Below, in pieces: positions 21,404 to 50,547 of a stretch of 50,881 nt of DNA. The stretch's first letter is position 1, and every line of letters begins with the position of its first letter. The notes below the pieces were generated by a model. The model did not search any database, was not told where the DNA came from, and saw nothing but the letters and a program-made list of their open reading frames with translations. The translations under genes and the position numbers were made by a program. Source of the stretch: a virus; the IMG/VR virus record IMGVR_UViG_3300020596_000032, positions 1 to 50,881 of that record, one strand, 5' to 3'.

Positions 21404-21425
21404 GAATTCGCCCTGCTTGATCAAT

Positions 21426-21432
21426 TATTTAC
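21426..21432 (-). promoter_or_regulatory. Late promoter motif GTAAATA
   Basis: Minus-strand GTAAATA with TAAATA at 21431-21426, directly after a terminator hairpin. The predicted start near 21420 gives a 17-nt leader before the ATG at 21403. Confidence 0.5.
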
Positions 21433-21456
21433 CCAATTCACGGGGGCTTTTATCAC

Positions 21457-21484
21457 AAAGAAAAGGGCGACCGCTTGGCCGCCC
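21457..21484 (-). terminator. Rho-independent terminator after the gp6-like gene
   Basis: On the minus strand GGGCGGCC (21484-21477), loop AAGC, GGTCGCCC (21472-21465), then TTTTCTTT. This is an eight-pair stem with one G-T pair and a U-rich tail, about 100 bp after the gp6 stop and just before the late promoter of the giant gene. Confidence 0.8.
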
Positions 21485-21518
21485 TCGTCTCAATCCCCCG
21501 CTATGGACGCTTATCTTC

Positions 21519-21562
21519 TCCATATATGGACATTTCTCTCGAATCGTCCTCCCTATATGGGA
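21519..21562. promoter_or_regulatory. Two operator-like dyads 31 bp apart
   Basis: TCCATATATGGA at 21519-21530 is a perfect palindrome. TCCCTATATGGGA at 21550-21562 is a near copy. Each is followed by ATTTCTCTC with the same 31-bp offset (about three helical turns). They lie in the 160-bp gap after gp6, upstream of the terminator on the minus strand. A related dyad is at 45530-45543. They may be protein-binding sites or small RNA hairpins; neither is shown. Confidence 0.45.
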
Positions 21563-21585
21563 ATTTCTCTCATATCGACAACAGT

Positions 21586-37997: not shown

Positions 37998-38179
37998 ATC
38001 GGTTTGTCCTTATGAGTGATACACAAAGTGCCTTCTGGAGTATCACCGTGTACATCGAGAACTTCTTGCCGCATATCATTGATCGTATCGGGATCGGGTT
38101 CGGTGTCGATATACGTCCATCGAGCGGAAAGTTTTCTACTCTTCGCGGTAACGACTTGCCTCTCTATTTGTAATTTCAT
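37994..38179 (-). CDS. Small protein resembling a gp23 capsid segment
   Basis: A 61-residue protein starting MKLQIERQVVTAKSRKLSAR, then WTYIDTEPDPDTINDMRQEV. The first half matches the T4 gp23 segment FRIDKQVIEAKSRQLKAAYS (I-x-x-Q-V-x-x-A-K-S-R-x-L-x-A). The second half shares DPDxIxDMRQ with the gp23-like stretch at 37375-37500. It is coupled to thyX by an ATGA overlap and to the next gene by another. It is too short to be a capsid protein; a decoy, regulator or residual fragment are options. Confidence 0.6.
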   Translation of the reverse strand: MKLQIERQVVTAKSRKLSARWTYIDTEPDPDTINDMRQEVLDVHGDTPEGTLCITHKDKPI

Positions 38180-40359
38180 GAGAAATTCTTTTGGAACTCC
38201 ACGATTTCCCGTTCGCTCACGTTGGAACCACGAAGATTTTGAAGAATGGTACTCATCCCGCCGTTCATGTCAATATAGTCGCGAATCGCAGACTTCTCGG
38301 TTTTCGACAACTGAACCGCACCCATCTGATACTCTTCGAAGGCTTCCATCGAGATTGGAAACATCTCGGTGAGAATTTTCCGCATGATGTTCGAGTAGAC
38401 GCGGATTTCCCACTGCGCGTGAGAATCGGAACGGAGTTTCATGAAGTGCATCAAGTTGTGCAGACTCACGCTCCAGTACCACTGTGTATACACGGCGACC
38501 GGAATCACACATCGGGCGAGTTCCCGAGCCAATCCCGGATAATCGTCCCCGGTCATGTACAGGTGATTCGCCGCGTAGTATTCCTTGATCTTCGCATCAA
38601 TCGCCTCGTCGTTGATCTCGATCTCTTCCCCGCGTTCCTTCGCGCGTCGCTGCATCTCATAGCAGGCGTTCACAGCGGCCTCTTTCCACACCACCGCACG
38701 ATTCTCAATCGAATCCGGCGCTCGGGGACGGGTCTGGTACTCCACGCCATCCGCATCTTTCGTGGTCTCGGGACCCAACAGGTACATGTAAGTCTTGAAC
38801 GCATCCTCGAAGGATAGCTGCATCGCCTCCACAACGGCTTCATAGTCGTTCTCGGTGAGTTCATTCTCCATCCGGCCTTGCTTGTTCGTGACCGCCTGTG
38901 GCATCGCGTTCTCCCGCCGAGGCAGGTAGAACTCGGAGTCCAACTTGGAATATCGGGCCGAATATTCGTTAAACGAATTATGAACAACGAAACCGTTCGC
39001 AATGAAATTATGAAACGGGGTTTCGACTTCTAAATCATAGACTTCTTCTTCCCCATCGTATTCAATTTTTACAATCTCATCAAACACTACTCGATTCTTA
39101 GTGGACATACCGTGGAGAACTCGGTCTTCACCATTTTCTTTCGGGGTTCCCCATTTCAAATTGTCCGTGCGGTTATCAGACGGATTACCATTTAGATGAC
39201 GACACTCTTCTAGCCCTACCCGAGGCCGCTGAAATGTCTCCAACACCAACTGATGAATCAAACGGGTCCGCTGACCATCCATTGGATATTGAATATTAAC
39301 ACATCGATATCCAACCTGCATGGTTGATTCTTGCATTTCTTTCCATTCACCAGACTTATTTGATCTTACTCGTCCGTGATCTGATACTTGATATACTCCA
39401 TCAGTATCCAGAATATCTTTCCATGTTTCTTTCGACGAAGATATTGATACGCATTCGTTACTCACTGCCGCTGGACGATTTCTTGCAATTTTAGCGGAAG
39501 CGCATCCGGTATCTGGATCAACGAATTCGCCCAAAGGGAGCCACCCACGATCCGTCAAACACAAATGATCCAGTGTCAAACGTATCGTCGCTTGTTCAGT
39601 ACTGATTCGATAAACGGGCTTGACTCCGTTAGACCATACATCTCGGACGTTCGTGATCTCGATTTGGTCTGTTTTTTCATTATAGAAACGCAATTTCATA
39701 TTTTTCAATCGTTCGCGGTTTATAATAACCGGAACACCCCGAATTTCGAATGTTTTGTCGGCCCACTCCGACCATTCCTTTTTCTTCTCTTGGGAGACTT
39801 CTGTATCCCCTCGATTGATCAACTGTCGAATGTCTTCGGGCCTGCGTTCGACCAATTCTGCCATTTCTGGAACGGTGTATGATTTTCCTTCTTCAAGGCG
39901 TTCCGTATATGAGGGCTTTAATTTACCACGTGCCCGTCGCGTACTCAAACGATGCCAATTATCATGAAATTTCTTAATCGTTACGGGATATCTAGTCGAT
40001 TCGCTATTGACAAAATCCAGTTGCACGTCTCCTGCGAGACAACCCGTGCGGTGGCGTATCCATTGCCTCGCCACGAAGATCGGCAGCTTCACGTGCCACT
40101 TCAACTGAACCATTTCGAATGGACTGGTATGTGAGTGACGCTTCAAGTAACGAATCAACGTTCGGGTGGTACTGGTCTTCTTCGTGCCCCGACCATAGCT
40201 GACCCGGGCGGCGTCTACGATGTCCTGATCCGATCCCATGAAATCCACGAGCGCGATATGGCCGTGATCCAAAACCGGAGTATACTCGGGAGCGAATACC
40301 CGATGCTCTCCAATCATCGTTGCATCGAAATCTTCTGGAACCTCGACCTTAACCCACAT
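38176..40359 (-). CDS. thyX: Flavin-dependent thymidylate synthase ThyX containing an intein
   Basis: A 727-codon gene. The extein is 372 residues. N-terminal residues 1-106 contain SHTSPFEMVQLKWHVKLPIF and RQWIRHRTG; after the intein the sequence continues SFNEYSARYSKLDSEF. Joined, this gives RHRTGSFNEYSARY, the ThyX signature RHRxxSxNEYSxRY that binds FAD and dUMP. The C-terminal part has CVIPVAVYTQWYWSVSLHNL followed by MHFMKLRSDSHAQWEIR, the conserved nucleotide-binding end. ThyX makes dTMP from dUMP with CH2-folate and FAD. The gene overlaps the dNMP kinase by 11 bp, which fits nucleotide supply. Confidence 0.92.
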   Translation of the reverse strand: MWVKVEVPEDFDATMIGEHRVFAPEYTPVLDHGHIALVDFMGSDQDIVDAARVSYGRGTKKTSTTRTLIRYLKRHSHTSPFEMVQLKWHVKLPIFVARQWIRHRTGCLAGDVQLDFVNSESTRYPVTIKKFHDNWHRLSTRRARGKLKPSYTERLEEGKSYTVPEMAELVERRPEDIRQLINRGDTEVSQEKKKEWSEWADKTFEIRGVPVIINRERLKNMKLRFYNEKTDQIEITNVRDVWSNGVKPVYRISTEQATIRLTLDHLCLTDRGWLPLGEFVDPDTGCASAKIARNRPAAVSNECVSISSSKETWKDILDTDGVYQVSDHGRVRSNKSGEWKEMQESTMQVGYRCVNIQYPMDGQRTRLIHQLVLETFQRPRVGLEECRHLNGNPSDNRTDNLKWGTPKENGEDRVLHGMSTKNRVVFDEIVKIEYDGEEEVYDLEVETPFHNFIANGFVVHNSFNEYSARYSKLDSEFYLPRRENAMPQAVTNKQGRMENELTENDYEAVVEAMQLSFEDAFKTYMYLLGPETTKDADGVEYQTRPRAPDSIENRAVVWKEAAVNACYEMQRRAKERGEEIEINDEAIDAKIKEYYAANHLYMTGDDYPGLARELARCVIPVAVYTQWYWSVSLHNLMHFMKLRSDSHAQWEIRVYSNIMRKILTEMFPISMEAFEEYQMGAVQLSKTEKSAIRDYIDMNGGMSTILQNLRGSNVSEREIVEFQKNFS
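38977..40041 (-). mobile_element. HNH-type intein in thyX
   Basis: A 355-residue intein. It starts at Cys107 (CLAGDVQLDFVNSEST) and ends YDLEVETPFHNFIANGFVVHN (only this end given) before Ser, with canonical His-Asn. Block B is RLTLDHLCLTDRGW. The endonuclease part has a NUMOD4-like WKDILDTDGVYQVSDHGRVR and an HNH core with LIHQLVLETFQRP, CRHLNGNPSDNRTDNLKWGT. The insertion lies between Gly and Ser of the RHRTGS catalytic signature. HNH endonucleases in inteins are less common than LAGLIDADG ones. Confidence 0.88.
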
Positions 40360-43037: not shown

Positions 43038-43366
43038 CGTCTAACCGTATCCATGATCTGATCCACGGTCTCGCCGATTCTCCGGGCGAGATCGCTCACG
43101 TCTTGATAGAGTTCGGCGAAATCCTCGGCGTCTCCCGCCTCCATCGCGCTTTGCATCATACGGGAATATTCCTCAAATACTAGTTTCGACCGTATGAGTT
43201 TTTCCTTCGTCTCCCAGAACGCACTGTTATGGGGCTGCACACGGTCTTCGGCTAGTGTCATGATCTCCGTCAGGGTCGGAAAAATCTCATTCAACATGGC
43301 ATGACGGGACAATATCAGCCCCTCTTCCATCTTGGCTTGGCTCAGGTCCAACGCGGTCATGTCCAT
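43028..43366 (-). CDS. Small helical protein of the gp46/gp47 operon
   Basis: A 112-residue, almost wholly alpha-helical protein starting MDMTALDLSQAKMEEGLIL, with many acidic residues and a possible coiled coil at AEDFAELYQDVSDLARRIGE. GGAG lies five bases before the ATG and the start overlaps the gp46 stop by 10 bp, so it is translated with the nuclease subunit. No family recognised; an accessory to recombination is possible from position only. Confidence 0.62.
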   Translation of the reverse strand: MDMTALDLSQAKMEEGLILSRHAMLNEIFPTLTEIMTLAEDRVQPHNSAFWETKEKLIRSKLVFEEYSRMMQSAMEAGDAEDFAELYQDVSDLARRIGETVDQIMDTVRRAS

Positions 43367-45528
43367 ACGATCTCCGATACGTCGTTCTGTTTACGAACCA
43401 GCATCACATCACCAATCTGGTCCAACAAGTCCATCCGATGGGTGATCAGGAATACGTGTTTGTATTTACGAGTGCGTTTCTTGATCACTTCCATCAACTG
43501 CGACGCGCCCTTGGGATCAAGACCATTATCCAATAGTTCGTCCAAGAACAACACATTAATCCGGAAATACATCGATTCGAAGCAGTCTTGGAACGCGAAA
43601 TTGATCGCGAAGGCCAATCGGGTCTGTTCCCCCCGGGAAAGATTCCCCAACGCGTATTCCTTGTCCCTCTTGGAGATGAACATTTCCATCTCGGCATCGA
43701 ACCTCACGTCCTGCGAGAGTCCGAATTCCTTCGCATACATGTGGAGTTTATGGTTCACCTTGAGCAACCACTTCTCAACGATCTTCTTCCTCAAGAATGA
43801 GTCGGGTTTGGTCAGGGCTTCGATGAGGAAGTTGTAATGCTCCACGTCGAGGTCCATCTCACCCACCTCTCGGCGAAGGTCTCCGAGATCGACCAGAGCG
43901 GAGGTCTTCAACGATTCGATCTGCTCCGGATAGGGGTCGGTCAGGGTTTTCCGCTGTTCCAACTCCGAACGCACCACGGCAGCTTCCCGATCCAATTTAT
44001 CAATAGTCGATTGAGCTTCGTTGATCTGGACCGTCAGTTGGGTGATCACATCGAGAACTTCGATCACCGGCTCGGCGGCGATCTTCGCGGCCTCTTCGAA
44101 ATCGATTTTCTTCGTCAACGCAAGAATCTGGGACTGGGCCAAACTCGTATCCGTGGTGACTTCCCCCGGAAGGGGTTCGGTCATCTCCGACAGGTCTTTC
44201 TCGTATTGGGCCAGTCTGACCCGGGAATCCGCAATAGCAGACTCTAACCCATCAAGGGTACGTTGAGTCGTGGCGATTTCTGCGTCTCTCTTCGCGGTAT
44301 CGGTCCAGTCCTGATTACACGTGGGGCACTTCCCGACTTCGGTGTGATCCGCGTAGTGGGCCAATCTGTTCTGGAGTTCCGGAACCCGTTTTTCTCGTTC
44401 GGCGGAATCCCGTTTCAAATCCGCAATGTTCGTTTCCAACCGGGTTTTGGCTTTTCGATACCCCTCTAGGGCTTGGACATGACTATCCTTGGCGGCCTGT
44501 TCTGCCCGCGTGGCGTTCTGGATAACCCGCTCGTGCTTCCCGCGCTCGAAACGGTATTCCGTCACTCGTCCCTCGATGCCCTCGAACAGGGTCATCGCCC
44601 GGGTTTGAGAATCCGGCTGATCCAGTTGAAACTGCCCATCTTGATTGCATAATTGAAAAAACGAGTTATCCTCGAATAATTCAATGGAACCATCAACGAG
44701 TTCACGATATTCCGCGTGCATCGTGGTCAGGTCCGGACGCTGCTCCAGAATTCTCTGTAACCGTTGCTCGTTCTGCTTCTTCAACGAAGCTTCGTACTGA
44801 ATCCACTCGGAGGATTTTTTTTCCAATCCTTCGATCTGATCGTGAATGCGTCGATTCGCGGATTCGTTCGCGGCAAGCTCGGCTTGTTTTTCGACAAGAA
44901 CCCGGTTCAACTCCTTCCTCTGTGTCTTGAGCGTCTCCGACCGCTCCTTGAGCACGGTGAATCCGAATAATTTCTCGATGATGTCGCGTTTTTCGGCGGC
45001 TTCGAGTTCGAGGAACGCCTTGGAAGCGGTACTGTTTCCCCAGAGGTACTTCGACATGAGGAAATCCAACCCCAACGTCTCTACGATCTGTTTGGTCGTG
45101 TCCTGCTTGGATTTGGTCAAATCGAACTTGAATGCTTTACCATCGCGGGTCCGGATATCGTCCGGATCATTCACGGACTTCCCGAGGAAGAACAAACGGG
45201 AGGGATTCTCTCCGCGTTCGATGAGGTATTCCATATCCCCCTTACGGAATACGAACTCCACCATCGTGGATTGGTTCGCCCGGGCGAACTTATGGATGAT
45301 CTTCTTTCCGGTCACCCCTCGGAGGGTCTTCCCGTAAATCGCATAAAATATTGCATCGATGATTGAGGACTTACCGCAGCCGTTGCGGGCTCCCTCCTCA
45401 CCACCACCATCATCGAGATTCTCACCCAAAATAGCGGTGAATCGTCCGACATTGAATTTAATCTTCGTCCCGGTATTACCGAATCCGAGGAAATTCCAAA
45501 TCGCGACCGAGATAAATTCAGTATTCAT
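43357..45528 (-). CDS. gp46: gp46-like recombination endonuclease subunit (SbcC/Rad50 type)
   Basis: A 723-residue SMC-like ATPase. The Walker A is the expanded GARNGCGKSSIIDAIFYAIY after GENLDDGGGEE, as in T4 gp46. The middle is a long coiled coil with a zinc hook at CPTCNQDW. LGNLSRGEQTRLAFAINFAF is the ABC signature and NVLFLDELLDNGLDPKG is the Walker B. With gp47 it forms the nuclease that resects DNA ends for recombination-dependent replication and degrades host DNA. Operon order here is unknown gene, gp47, small acidic gene, gp46, small helical gene. A dyad overlaps its ribosome site. Confidence 0.88.
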   Translation of the reverse strand: MNTEFISVAIWNFLGFGNTGTKIKFNVGRFTAILGENLDDGGGEEGARNGCGKSSIIDAIFYAIYGKTLRGVTGKKIIHKFARANQSTMVEFVFRKGDMEYLIERGENPSRLFFLGKSVNDPDDIRTRDGKAFKFDLTKSKQDTTKQIVETLGLDFLMSKYLWGNSTASKAFLELEAAEKRDIIEKLFGFTVLKERSETLKTQRKELNRVLVEKQAELAANESANRRIHDQIEGLEKKSSEWIQYEASLKKQNEQRLQRILEQRPDLTTMHAEYRELVDGSIELFEDNSFFQLCNQDGQFQLDQPDSQTRAMTLFEGIEGRVTEYRFERGKHERVIQNATRAEQAAKDSHVQALEGYRKAKTRLETNIADLKRDSAEREKRVPELQNRLAHYADHTEVGKCPTCNQDWTDTAKRDAEIATTQRTLDGLESAIADSRVRLAQYEKDLSEMTEPLPGEVTTDTSLAQSQILALTKKIDFEEAAKIAAEPVIEVLDVITQLTVQINEAQSTIDKLDREAAVVRSELEQRKTLTDPYPEQIESLKTSALVDLGDLRREVGEMDLDVEHYNFLIEALTKPDSFLRKKIVEKWLLKVNHKLHMYAKEFGLSQDVRFDAEMEMFISKRDKEYALGNLSRGEQTRLAFAINFAFQDCFESMYFRINVLFLDELLDNGLDPKGASQLMEVIKKRTRKYKHVFLITHRMDLLDQIGDVMLVRKQNDVSEIVWT

Positions 45529-45841: not shown

Positions 45842-46879
45842 CTACCGTGCTCCCATGTAGAGAGTCTCTAGTTTGACCGGATCGATCCTCGTCCCAGTCA
45901 CATCAAGGGCACGGATGGAATTGACCACGAATTCATCGAGGTTCTGGCCCAACTCCTGATCGGAAGTATTCTCGGCGACCTCTTTTTGAACAGGCTTGAC
46001 CGTGAACTCCCTGACCATGCCCTGAATGTACTCATTAAGAACGAACAGGTCTTCATCGGGGATATTTACATCGTCAGTACATTCAATGACACTTTTCGAG
46101 TTGAACTTTTTTTCAAACCCTTCGATGTCCATTTCCAACACTTCCGACATTTTTATCCGATTGTAGTTGGGACCCGCCGTCCAGTCTAAAAATTCCGGAA
46201 CCCCACCGTGTTCAAAAAACATCGCCCCACGTTTGCGGTCGTTGGTGTCGTTGTAGTCCATCCCAAACGTGTTACCGATGTAACAGATGTTCACTCCATG
46301 GGAATTTTTCTTGATCTGTCTCTTGTGGAAATGCCCCGAGAACACCCACTCCGGATGGGTGAACATGTCGGCGGTGATTCCGTGACCCTTGTCCTCGAAC
46401 TCGTACCACTCATTCGTGAGGAACATCGGAAATTCGAAGTGCCCGAACACGTACTTGCACTCGTAACTGGGAACGACGGCGAATTCCTCACCCACCAGAT
46501 ACGGACACAGAAGGATATCCCCGATGAGTGTGGGTTCGTTGATCACGCGAACTCCCGGGAACAAATCCAGATACGGATGGGAATGGACCGACCGGTTGTT
46601 TCTGAAATACATATCGTGGTTTCCGATGAGAAACCAAATGGGCAAGTTCAGACCATTGAGCATGTCGAAGGCTTCACGAGACCTCCACTGCGTATCCAAC
46701 CGGAGCCGGGACCGATTATCGAACCAGTCCCCCATGACGATGATCTGGTCGGGTTTCCGCTCACGTACGTTCGAGCAGAACCAACTCACGTAATCGAGGC
46801 AATCCTGATTATGTTGTTCGGAATCGCTCTTGCGTCCAAAATGGATGTCCGTCATTGCCGCGATCTTCTTGAACGTCAT
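45842..46879 (-). CDS. gp47: gp47-like recombination endonuclease subunit (SbcD/Mre11 type)
   Basis: A 345-residue metallophosphoesterase. The motifs are in order: TDIHFGRKSDSEQHN (D-x-H), VMGDWFDNRSRL (GDxxD), WFLIGNHDMYFRN (GNHD), KYVFGHFEFP and WVFSGHFHKRQ (GHxH). These give the two-metal active site of Mre11/gp47. The length matches T4 gp47 (339). It works with gp46 in end resection. It has an ATGA overlap with the upstream unknown gene. Confidence 0.9.
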   Translation of the reverse strand: MTFKKIAAMTDIHFGRKSDSEQHNQDCLDYVSWFCSNVRERKPDQIIVMGDWFDNRSRLRLDTQWRSREAFDMLNGLNLPIWFLIGNHDMYFRNNRSVHSHPYLDLFPGVRVINEPTLIGDILLCPYLVGEEFAVVPSYECKYVFGHFEFPMFLTNEWYEFEDKGHGITADMFTHPEWVFSGHFHKRQIKKNSHGVNICYIGNTFGMDYNDTNDRKRGAMFFEHGGVPEFLDWTAGPNYNRIKMSEVLEMDIEGFEKKFNSKSVIECTDDVNIPDEDLFVLNEYIQGMVREFTVKPVQKEVAENTSDQELGQNLDEFVVNSIRALDVTGTRIDPVKLETLYMGAR

Positions 46880-47514
46880 AGATTCAAACTTTCAATAATC
46901 GTGGGTTCAACTTCATTCCAAATCGACAACACATTCGCCGCGACCACGTCTTCACCTCGCTTGCACTGGTCCTTCGTCATTTCGAACGCGGCGTCATCAC
47001 TCACCCCAGCGATGATGTTTTTCGCGTATGCCTCCCAGAAACGAGTCTCATACCGCGTGGCACGATCCAGTTCTCGTTGGAGGTACACCTCTAGGTCTTT
47101 CTCGAAAAGAACGTCATTTCCCGGAAATTCTCCGAGATTATCCCGGGTCCATTTTTCCCACACGTCTTTCCAAATCCATATTCTCTGGATCGCAATCTTC
47201 TCGTCGAGTTCCGATCCCTCCTCGCACTCGTCGTTCCACTCGATGTCGGGCAACCCCGCACTAGTCTCCGACAGAACCTCTAGGAAGGCCACGAGGGTAT
47301 CCGCAACTAGCACCGAACCCGTCACTCGCGTTTCGAGTACCGAGTTGGCGAATCCGACATTGACACGAAGAGAATTCCGCACAGATTCGTCGTCAGCGAT
47401 ATCGAACCCGCCTACCGAACTCAAATAACGAAGAGTCGCTTCTGCTAGTACGTTTTCCTCGACGTACGTCAAACCGATCCACGATTGGGCACCCACAGGC
47501 TCGAATATCTTCAT
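46876..47514 (-). CDS. Hypothetical protein heading the gp47/gp46 operon
   Basis: A 212-residue protein starting MKIFEPVGAQSWIGLTYVEE. It is acidic and mixed alpha/beta, with IWIWKDVWEKWTRDNLGE and CKRGEDVVAANVLSIWNEVE near the C-terminus. No family recognised. It is the first gene of the operon, coupled to gp47 by an ATGA overlap, so a role in replication or recombination is suspected. Its promoter would lie in the structured region 47515-48057. Confidence 0.62.
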   Translation of the reverse strand: MKIFEPVGAQSWIGLTYVEENVLAEATLRYLSSVGGFDIADDESVRNSLRVNVGFANSVLETRVTGSVLVADTLVAFLEVLSETSAGLPDIEWNDECEEGSELDEKIAIQRIWIWKDVWEKWTRDNLGEFPGNDVLFEKDLEVYLQRELDRATRYETRFWEAYAKNIIAGVSDDAAFEMTKDQCKRGEDVVAANVLSIWNEVEPTIIESLNL

Positions 47515-47580
47515 ACCCTCGTATCTAGCCTTTTCCGATTCAACGTCAATATCGAATCCACGGCTCTGTCGGTCGGAGCG

Positions 47581-47684
47581 GGACCGAAGGTCCGGGGAAT
47601 ACAGACTAGGCGAGGCAGAGCCTCGCCATTGACCTTCGAGGTCAGGAGGTCCAAGGAGGTAATTCCTCCCAGTCTGTATTCCCC
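47581..47684 (+). ncRNA. Candidate structured RNA with a four-way junction
   Basis: Arms GGGGAATACAGACT (47594-47607) and AGTCTGTATTCCCC (47671-47684) form a perfect 14-bp stem. Inside are three hairpins: GGCGAGGC-AGA-GCCTCGCC (47609-47627), GACCT-TCG-AGGTC (47631-47643) and GGAGG-TAATT-CCTCC (47655-47669). A further hairpin GGACC-GAA-GGTCC (47581-47593) abuts the 5' side. This is far more pairing than expected in a random 104-bp gap. The strand is not certain since inverted repeats read on both; plus is given because the next plus gene follows. It is not a tRNA. Confidence 0.55.
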
Positions 47685-47735
47685 AGATAAGATTTAAGAA
47701 TAAGAGGAGAAGTAACTAGTTATATTATTCTAGAC

Positions 47736-47763
47736 TACAGACTGGGAGAAACCGTCTCCTTTT
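47736..47763 (+). terminator. Terminator-like hairpin with competing antiterminator pairing
   Basis: GGAGA (47745-47749), loop AACCG, TCTCC (47755-47759), TTTT. The left side TACAGACTGGGAG (47736-47748) is a perfect 13-bp complement of CTCCCAGTCTGTA (47666-47678), which also forms the 3' arm of the four-way-junction stem. The two pairings exclude each other, as in attenuators and riboswitches. Confidence 0.4.
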
Positions 47764-47776
47764 GGTCTACTATTAC

Positions 47777-47931
47777 CCAAATGGGGATCGATATTGATAT
47801 ATAATTTCAAGAAAAGGAGACTTGATCTACTTATTACTAAACGCCAAAAACGTCAAAAGGAGACGATTTTCTACTTTTTTTTAGAATCCAAATCGGTATC
47901 GATATTGAAACATTATTTCTCAAAAAGGAGA
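47777..47931. repeat. Direct repeat pair of 44 bp, 111 bp apart
   Basis: 47777-47820 and 47888-47931 match at about 36 of 44 positions without gaps. Shared core: ATCGATATTGA and AAAAGGAGA. The first copy contains TATAAT (47800-47805). A third AAAAGGAGA is at 47855-47863. CGTCTCCTTTTG (47753-47764) and CAAAAGGAGACG (47854-47865) form a 12-bp inverted repeat. Confidence 0.6.
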
Positions 47932-47990
47932 ATCTAGGAGATCGAACCTCCTCGGTGTAGAGGGCAAAATAGAGGTCATTTCTCCTTTTT
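47922..47990. other. Imperfect hairpin in the leader region
   Basis: AAAAAGGAGAA (47922-47932) pairs with TTCTCCTTTTT (47980-47990), 11 bp, with an inner AGGAG (47936-47940)/CTCCT (47948-47952) stem. The downstream arm ends in a T-run, so it could act as a terminator on the plus strand. The rest of 47515-48057 contains no gene that I can support. Confidence 0.4.
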
Positions 47991-48057
47991 TCTAAAAAAT
48001 GAAAATCTCTCTGTCCGGAAGGATTTCAAAATCTATATCATGACGGGTGGAGGATTT

Positions 48058-48627
48058 ATGGCGCGACTGATTGGAAAAAAACTGGCGATATCGGCGAAGG
48101 AGGAAATCGAACTCGTTGAGGTTCTGGTCGGGTTGCACTTGAAAAACTCGTGGGATGAGAATTGTCGCCATGTTCAGAGGTCATTTTTGGAATGGGTGTT
48201 GATCTATCGGGATTCGGTGGATCAATTATTTGATTACGCAACACGGCACAAAATCAAGTTCGTTCGGTTCGCCACGGATAATCCGAGTGGGTATCCCGGG
48301 GACACGGTGAAGCTCAAGGGACTATCCCCGGAATGGGTAGAACAGGCGAAGATCAAGCATAACCGGTCGATCATCTACCGTCGATCCCGATTGATCATGG
48401 AAAAGGCCACACAGGCTAGGATGACCACCGCCGAGATTAATTCGTGTTTCCCGACGATCCAACACGGAGCGATGATCGACTCGGAGAGAATCGATCAACA
48501 GATAACGTTCCTCGGAGAAACCATACTGGAGATGCACAAGGATATCGTGGTTATGAGGAATACTATCACGGAATTCCGCGAGGAGTTGGAACGACTACGG
48601 GGACGAAATGCGACTGGCCCTGAATAA
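48058..48627 (+). CDS. Hypothetical protein with C-terminal coiled coil
   Basis: A 189-residue protein. The start is the ATG at 48058 (MARLIGKKLAISAKEEI), four bases after GGAGG; an in-frame ATG at 48040 lacks a ribosome site. The middle is basic (KIKHNRSIIYRRSRLIME), and the end IVVMRNTITEFREELERLRG is a likely coiled coil. No family recognised. It is the first gene after the structured leader and overlaps the next gene by 20 bp. Confidence 0.62.
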   Translation: MARLIGKKLAISAKEEIELVEVLVGLHLKNSWDENCRHVQRSFLEWVLIYRDSVDQLFDYATRHKIKFVRFATDNPSGYPGDTVKLKGLSPEWVEQAKIKHNRSIIYRRSRLIMEKATQARMTTAEINSCFPTIQHGAMIDSERIDQQITFLGETILEMHKDIVVMRNTITEFREELERLRGRNATGPE

Positions 48628-49422: not shown

Positions 49423-49437
49423 GCCATGGAGAATCGT

Positions 49438-50547
49438 ATGGAAAACCGCCTACTCACCGATCTACAGGGAATCAGCGTATTCCCGGGAATTGAACTCGCC
49501 CTCCCTACGATGGGTAATTTCTACTACCCCGAGGATGAAATCTTCGCCGAGGGCTTCGATCCGGGCAAGGTCAAGGTCAACGCCTTGGGTATTGCCAGCG
49601 AGCTATCCGTGAAGGACCCGTTGATGGTTCTATCCCGCCAGTCTACGCCAATGCTGGTTCAGTCAGTCTGTCCGATGGTGAAACGTCCAGAGATGCTATC
49701 CGAGATCGACATCGTGGCGATTATTCTCGCCGGAAGAATCGCCAGCTATGGCCCGAAATATCGCGTGGAACATGTTTGTCAGAATCCCGCATCCAGTACG
49801 GTCAAGGGTAAGGGTAAGGATGAGTTGACGTGTAAGAATGCCCGCGAGAGTAAGGCATCTGTGATCGAGGTCGATCTCTACGAGCACATTCTCCGATATG
49901 CCCCTTATACGGATTGGGATCAGTTCAGTGTGGATTTGCCCGAGGTGGGTCAACGTGTCGTGGTGCGTCCCTCCTCGTACCAGTCCTTCCTGCATCGTCT
50001 CAAGGTCGATCTCGAACAGAACAAAATTATGAACCAATACCGGGATACGGATGTCTCGGAATTCCTCACCGACGATGTCATGGTGGACGCGTACAAGGGG
50101 GTGTTGAAGAACTCGACCCAGATGGGCATCGATCAGATCGTGGATTCAATCTTCTTTGTCGAATCCATCAAGGGGAACTACAAGGAGGGAGACCGCACCC
50201 TGATTACGCAGTGGATCAAGGCGTTGCCGGTCCCCATAGTGGAACGCGTGATCAAACAGGTGAATAAGATTCGGGAGGATATCATTGAGAAATCTTTGAT
50301 CGACTACCGATGTGAAGAGTGCGGACACGTCAACAAGGTGATGATCGAACTCGATGCAGAAAGACTTTTTTCATCCGGCTCGCAAGGGACTCCCGAGCCG
50401 CTAACGATCAAGATGGAGTCGCCAGTGGAAATTCCGGTGGAGACGAGCGAGCCGTCACCCCCGCCGCCTACTACAGAGCCCTCCGGGCGCTCATCAAGGC
50501 GGACGAGAAGGACCGAGACTCCCAACTCGCGAATCTTTTCTCGTTGA
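49438..50547 (+). CDS. gp26: gp26-like baseplate hub protein
   Basis: A 369-residue protein (MENRLLTDLQGISVF). LALPTMGNFYYPEDEIF, SRQSTPMLVQSVCPM, then EIDIVAIILAGRIASYGPKY and a late Cys pair CEECGHVNKVMIEL fit the T4 gp26-type baseplate hub family (strand-rich N-terminus, DIxxIILAxR, C-terminal CxxC). After residue about 325 the frame is a Pro/Thr/Arg-rich tail without family similarity, while the -1 frame there encodes a gp51-like helical domain. The ORF may therefore end early or be joined to that domain by frameshifting. Late promoter upstream. Confidence 0.68.
   Translation: MENRLLTDLQGISVFPGIELALPTMGNFYYPEDEIFAEGFDPGKVKVNALGIASELSVKDPLMVLSRQSTPMLVQSVCPMVKRPEMLSEIDIVAIILAGRIASYGPKYRVEHVCQNPASSTVKGKGKDELTCKNARESKASVIEVDLYEHILRYAPYTDWDQFSVDLPEVGQRVVVRPSSYQSFLHRLKVDLEQNKIMNQYRDTDVSEFLTDDVMVDAYKGVLKNSTQMGIDQIVDSIFFVESIKGNYKEGDRTLITQWIKALPVPIVERVIKQVNKIREDIIEKSLIDYRCEECGHVNKVMIELDAERLFSSGSQGTPEPLTIKMESPVEIPVETSEPSPPPPTTEPSGRSSRRTRRTETPNSRIFSR

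Follow-up and report, generated by a model that had tools for sequence, protein, structure and literature searches.

The gene-free stretch at positions 47515-48057 of the virus record analyzed here raises the question whether it carries an RNA switch and, if so, on which strand and for which operon. The whole record, 50,881 bases, is referred to below as the window. In agreement with the ~540 bp given in the original prediction, the stretch separates two diverging operons; the other divergent gaps in this compact genome are only ~90 bp long. The minus operon comprises orf212, gp47 and gp46, and the plus operon comprises orf195, orf264 and a gp26-like gene (Table 1). Jumbo T4-like phages with a gp47 of approximately the identity listed include RaK2, GAP32, XbC2, and PA5oct. 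Translation of orf195 probably starts at 48058, where the ATG is preceded by GGAGG; an ATG at 48040 has no such motif. The products of orf212, orf195, and orf264 had no match in the family libraries searched or in the related loci fetched. For orf212, this comprised PHROGs, Pfam, NCBIfam, and PDB, and structure prediction for orf212 and orf195 yielded no usable model (mean pLDDT 42). As gp55 precedes gp47 in relatives, orf212 was also considered as gp55, a candidate we rejected because the conserved NPFAYYT region of the gp55 alignment was not seen by eye.

Table 1. Coordinates of the element, of neighboring signals and genes, and of RNAs in related loci (window positions unless a locus is named)
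Feature	Position	Strand	Description
Hairpin ahead of closing stem	47581-47593		GGACC-GAA-GGTCC
A	47594-47607		5' arm of the 14-bp closing stem (plus reading); GGGGAATACAGACT
Inner hairpin 1	47609-47627		8 perfect pairs, triloop
Inner hairpin 2	~47630-47651		Two local alternatives
Inner hairpin 3	47655-47669		GGAGG/CCTCC
A'	47671-47684		3' arm of the closing stem, common to both rival pairings; AGTCTGTATTCCCC
A''	47736-47748		Rival partner of A'
Small U-tailed hairpin	47744-47760, tail to 47763	+	GGGAGA-AACCG-TCTCC + TTTT; TTTTGGTC directly after 47760; weak terminator-like
Further inverted pair	47753-47764 with 47854-47865		12 bp
Box TCGATATTGA	47546-47555	-	Upstream of orf212; third copy, inverted relative to the 44-bp repeats
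Promoter-like repeat, copy 1	47777-47820	+	Box 47788-47797; AAAAGGAGAC 47812-47821
Promoter-like repeat, copy 2	47888-47931	+	82% identical; box 47899-47908; TTGAAA-17-GAGAAT
Inverted pair AAAAAGGAGAA/TTCTCCTTTTT	47922-47932 with 47980-47990	+	11 bp, then T-rich tail, to 47993; 47922-47993 possibly a long-loop terminator directly after repeat copy 2
orf212	46876-47514	-	Orphan; first gene of the minus operon
gp47	45842-46879	-	SbcD-like nuclease subunit; ~37% identical to jumbo T4-like phages
gp46	43357-45528	-	SbcC-like nuclease subunit; ~27% identity
orf195	48058-48627	+	Orphan; first gene of the plus operon
T4 gp26-like gene	49426-50547	+	Baseplate hub protein; ~23% identical to the XacN1 counterpart
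gp46-side RNA, examples	L036:6495-7005, L019:8468-8914, L029:8455-8940, L035:8475-9000		Also in ~30 further related loci

The original prediction described a 14-bp closing stem around three hairpins, the 3' arm of which can instead pair perfectly over 13 bp. Both pairings were recovered, with coordinates within a base or two. All 14 pairs form between A and A', and all 13 between CTCCCAGTCTGTA (47666-47678) and TACAGACTGGGAG (47736-47748). The chain of rival pairings runs on to ~48000, past the part first noted. When the 543-nt stretch was shuffled 100 times with dinucleotide content preserved, the longest perfect inverted repeats measured 7-12. By this comparison, the two competing pairings are genuine and greatly exceed chance. 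The minimum free energy of 47581-47764 was -81.2 on the plus strand (z -7.0) and -76.4 on the minus strand (z -6.4), values that no shuffle equaled; folding strength is much the same on the two strands, a further point beyond the original prediction. When 120-nt windows were scanned across the 50.9 kb, 47581-47700 was the top folding outlier on both strands (z -6.7 and -6.2; runner-up -3.5), and in a similar scan of six named related phages and 80 contigs of relatives, z never fell under -4.5. We conclude that the element is a real structure that stands out within its genome. As the 39 pairs of the plus fold include just one G-U, the stems alone show neither the strand nor an RNA nature.

To compare the strands, the two rival states were each forced. 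On the plus strand, the closing stem was ahead of the rival state by 9-12 kcal/mol in all eight transcripts tried, and in a growing transcript it was finished and locked in before the rival arm existed. On the minus strand, the states lay 0.1-2.0 kcal/mol apart for ten choices of start and end, and 0.8-2.9 kcal/mol apart in ten further transcripts extending into orf212. This balance arises because the extended arms (47653-47681/47733-47761) pair via three G-U bridges into 18+6 bp, that is, 24 pairs. In a growing minus transcript, the A'':A' helix formed first, A:A' was preferred once A was complete, and the fold reverted after the last hairpin. Energy models err by several kcal/mol on folds of this kind; thus, "balanced" holds within the error for the minus strand, whereas the plus gap exceeds it. 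With one instance of the element, strand balance alone constitutes evidence of moderate strength. An RNA switch, if there is one, would sit better in the leader of orf212-gp47-gp46.

The signals in the gap were then considered. Two copies of a 44-bp promoter-like repeat lie right of the element and read away from it. Their box recurs inverted upstream of orf212, so that three of the four exact TCGATATTGA copies in the window fall in this region. Because this separate box is located between the element and orf212, the minus operon may start downstream of the element. No plus-strand promoter-like site of note was found from 47400 to the element; the candidates lie inside it or to its right. The promoter-like sites able to send transcripts across the element read leftward, which supports a minus-strand leader. 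These candidates, with starts at ~47959-47992, rank ~155-270 in the window and are thus ordinary. Terminator-like matches in the region numbered 3 against 2.1 expected from shuffles, none of them on the minus strand. Accessibility of the start site hardly differed between the two minus folds, which, like the lack of a terminator-like match on that strand and the ordinary rank of the promoter candidates, weighs against the minus-strand leader.

We assign a probability of roughly one in three to the reading that the element is a structured cis-acting RNA that can adopt two folds of almost the same stability within the long 5' leader of the minus operon (orf212-gp47-gp46). It shares the front with a DNA control or origin element. 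We infer both transcription of the minus strand through the element and the entire action of the switch. In the first fold, A'' would pair with A' in the long 24-bp helix, which is predicted to form first; in the second, A' would pair with A, giving the closed three-hairpin domain. The balance would be shifted by some third factor, be it a protein, a ligand, or RNase III cleaving the long helix, and this shift would set how much recombination nuclease is made. At 24 bp, the helix reaches the length that RNase III requires of a substrate, and for this reason RNase III processing is the output we would favor. The more specific proposal is that this jumbo T4-like phage adjusts its gp46/47 recombination nuclease through a two-state RNA leader belonging to a new family, the long-helix state being the RNase III target; we consider it unlikely. 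In contrast to attenuator and riboswitch leaders, no terminator was found on the strand on which the element balances. A genuine minus-strand switch would mean that the recombination nuclease operon of a jumbo phage is controlled by a structured leader, one whose nearly equal folds could easily be tested by mutation. For a switch and an origin alike, the strand matters, as tests built on the plus reading would miss the element.

The main rival is a DNA element, either a replication origin or an operator region, in which the repeats would be protein-binding sites, the 33%-GC stretch would melt, and hairpins or a cruciform would form on both strands. We regard this as a tentative but serious possibility. 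Nearly all stems are Watson-Crick paired, and folded as DNA, both strands scored equally well (z -9.2/-9.4). Three repeat families (TCGATATTGA, AAAAGGAGAC, and TACAGACT) occur in both orientations, and the right flank is AT-rich, with 33-34% GC; repeated sites and an AT-rich stretch, as a replication origin would have, are both present. The cumulative GC skew of the whole window has its minimum at 47561, and the third-position GC skew of plus genes is negative to the left and positive to the right (Fisher p 0.011; leading versus lagging, p 0.03). Gene orientation, however, flips at the same place, the right side holds three genes only, and the AT skew shows no matching turn. Since T4-like phages initiate replication from several origins and by recombination, there is no prior reason to expect a single origin marked by skew. 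Iteron-type origins of phages and plasmids, of which T4 oriE is an example, likewise combine repeats in both orientations, an AT-rich flank, hairpins, and a turn in GC skew; the element differs in that no initiator gene was recognized and in that its skew is confounded by gene orientation. An origin at this position would mark the replication start site of such a phage.

Less probable, and in our view unlikely, is a free-standing structured non-coding phage RNA on either strand that would act through the static three-hairpin fold. In size and stability, the compact, perfect domain resembles a small RNA, and a large structured RNA does exist near gp46 in related jumbo phages, but the element is without a framing promoter/terminator pair and matches neither Rfam nor the RNA of the related phages. 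No tRNA was found. A retron RNA was not supported, as orf212, orf195, orf264, and the gp26-like gene had no reverse transcriptase match in Pfam, PHROGs, or NCBIfam.

The RNA of the relatives was followed up in its own right. Rfam family RF01718 (Polynucleobacter-1 RNA) was located directly 3' of gp46 in 9/12 and 12/14 of the related loci searched. In 2010, this motif was placed under Burkholderiales and fresh water/estuary (PMC2864571). Conservation extends ~300 nt past the Rfam model, and the gp46-side RNA of jumbo T4-like phages is structured and ~450 nt long, RF01718 covering its first ~141 nt. At an E-value of 0.01, a model of the extension, R1, comprising 115 positions outside RF01718, matched 33 of the 80 IMG/VR loci; the six named phages had no match. 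Its covariation was strong: 21 of 29 pairs had changed on both sides, and the covariation score was 0.50 compared with 0.19 for shuffled and at most 0.10 for slid alignments, the alignment having been fitted to the model, which favors covariation. Thus, the part outside RF01718 is conserved and covarying, and it is absent from the Rfam model. In the window, neither RF01718 nor R1 had a match. Both the Polynucleobacter-1 RNA and the element are structured, gene-free features found close to gp46 within one phage group, but the two share no sequence or structure match, and RF01718 lies 3' of gp46 whereas the element lies 5' of gp47. The idea that the element arose as a copy of the gp46-side RNA and then diverged was rejected.

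Homologues of the element itself were sought with the flanking proteins and with DNA patterns in IMG/VR, in two GTDB scans, and by BLAST against phages and plasmids (INPHARED and PLSDB), and none was found. The 80 related loci used throughout derived from an alignment-based gp47 search. A covariance model of the element matched only itself across the window and 86 loci, a result that further speaks against a copy of the gp46-side RNA. Pattern matches in L007, L015, and L016 look like chance, since they fall within coding sequence. Nothing in Rfam 15 scored above the gathering threshold, which bears out the earlier statement that no known RNA family was recognized.

The orphan status of the element would also suit a functionless relic of a recent local duplication or inversion by template switching, in which A, A', and A'' are three GAATACAGACTRGG-like copies, one of them inverted. 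A and A'' are 82% alike over 17 nt, and A' is 90% complementary to A over 20 nt. The inner hairpins and the hairpin at 47581-47593, however, are unrelated to the repeat and equally perfect, and the shortness of the genome's other divergent gaps likewise argues against a relic, which we judge quite unlikely. The plus-strand attenuator or riboswitch leader of the orf195-orf264-gp26 operon, as first proposed, is disfavored and very improbable: the exclusive pairing holds, and the order of closed multi-hairpin domain, shared arm with its rival partner, and neighboring U-tailed hairpin resembles known leaders of this type, but the 14-bp closing stem is made first and exceeds its rival by the margin given above, the U-tailed hairpin exists yet is weak (U-tract UUUUGG), no promoter-like site of note lies to the left, the promoter-like repeats lie to the right, and no family match was obtained.

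Further observations concern motifs in the gap and elsewhere in the window. On the plus strand of 47515-48057, AGGAG occurred 7 times against 1.4 expected, by eye with no usefully spaced start codon; a CsrA-type or ribosome-binding decoy was rejected on the ground that start codons at the proper distance were not seen. AAAAGGAGA occurred three times on the plus strand of the same stretch and twice on the minus strand. Exact CTAAATA was found 7 times in the whole window (2.5 expected), at 1564-, 1607+, 11616-, 13182-, 27119-, 37826+, and 49415+, with no copy in 47515-48057. All seven are intergenic, the non-coding share of the window being ~10% by the gene calls of this analysis, and CTAAATA probably serves this phage as its T4-like late promoter. 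At 314-598, there is a 141-nt tandem repeat of two copies with 80% identity. At 21425-21585, a strong intrinsic-terminator-like hairpin (GGGCGGCC..GGTCGCCC followed by TTTTCTTT on the minus strand) was noted, together with two similar near-palindromic repeats. Finally, a ThyX-type thymidylate synthase gene (38176-40359, minus strand) is split by an intein that carries homing endonuclease domains of the HNH/NUMOD4 kind.
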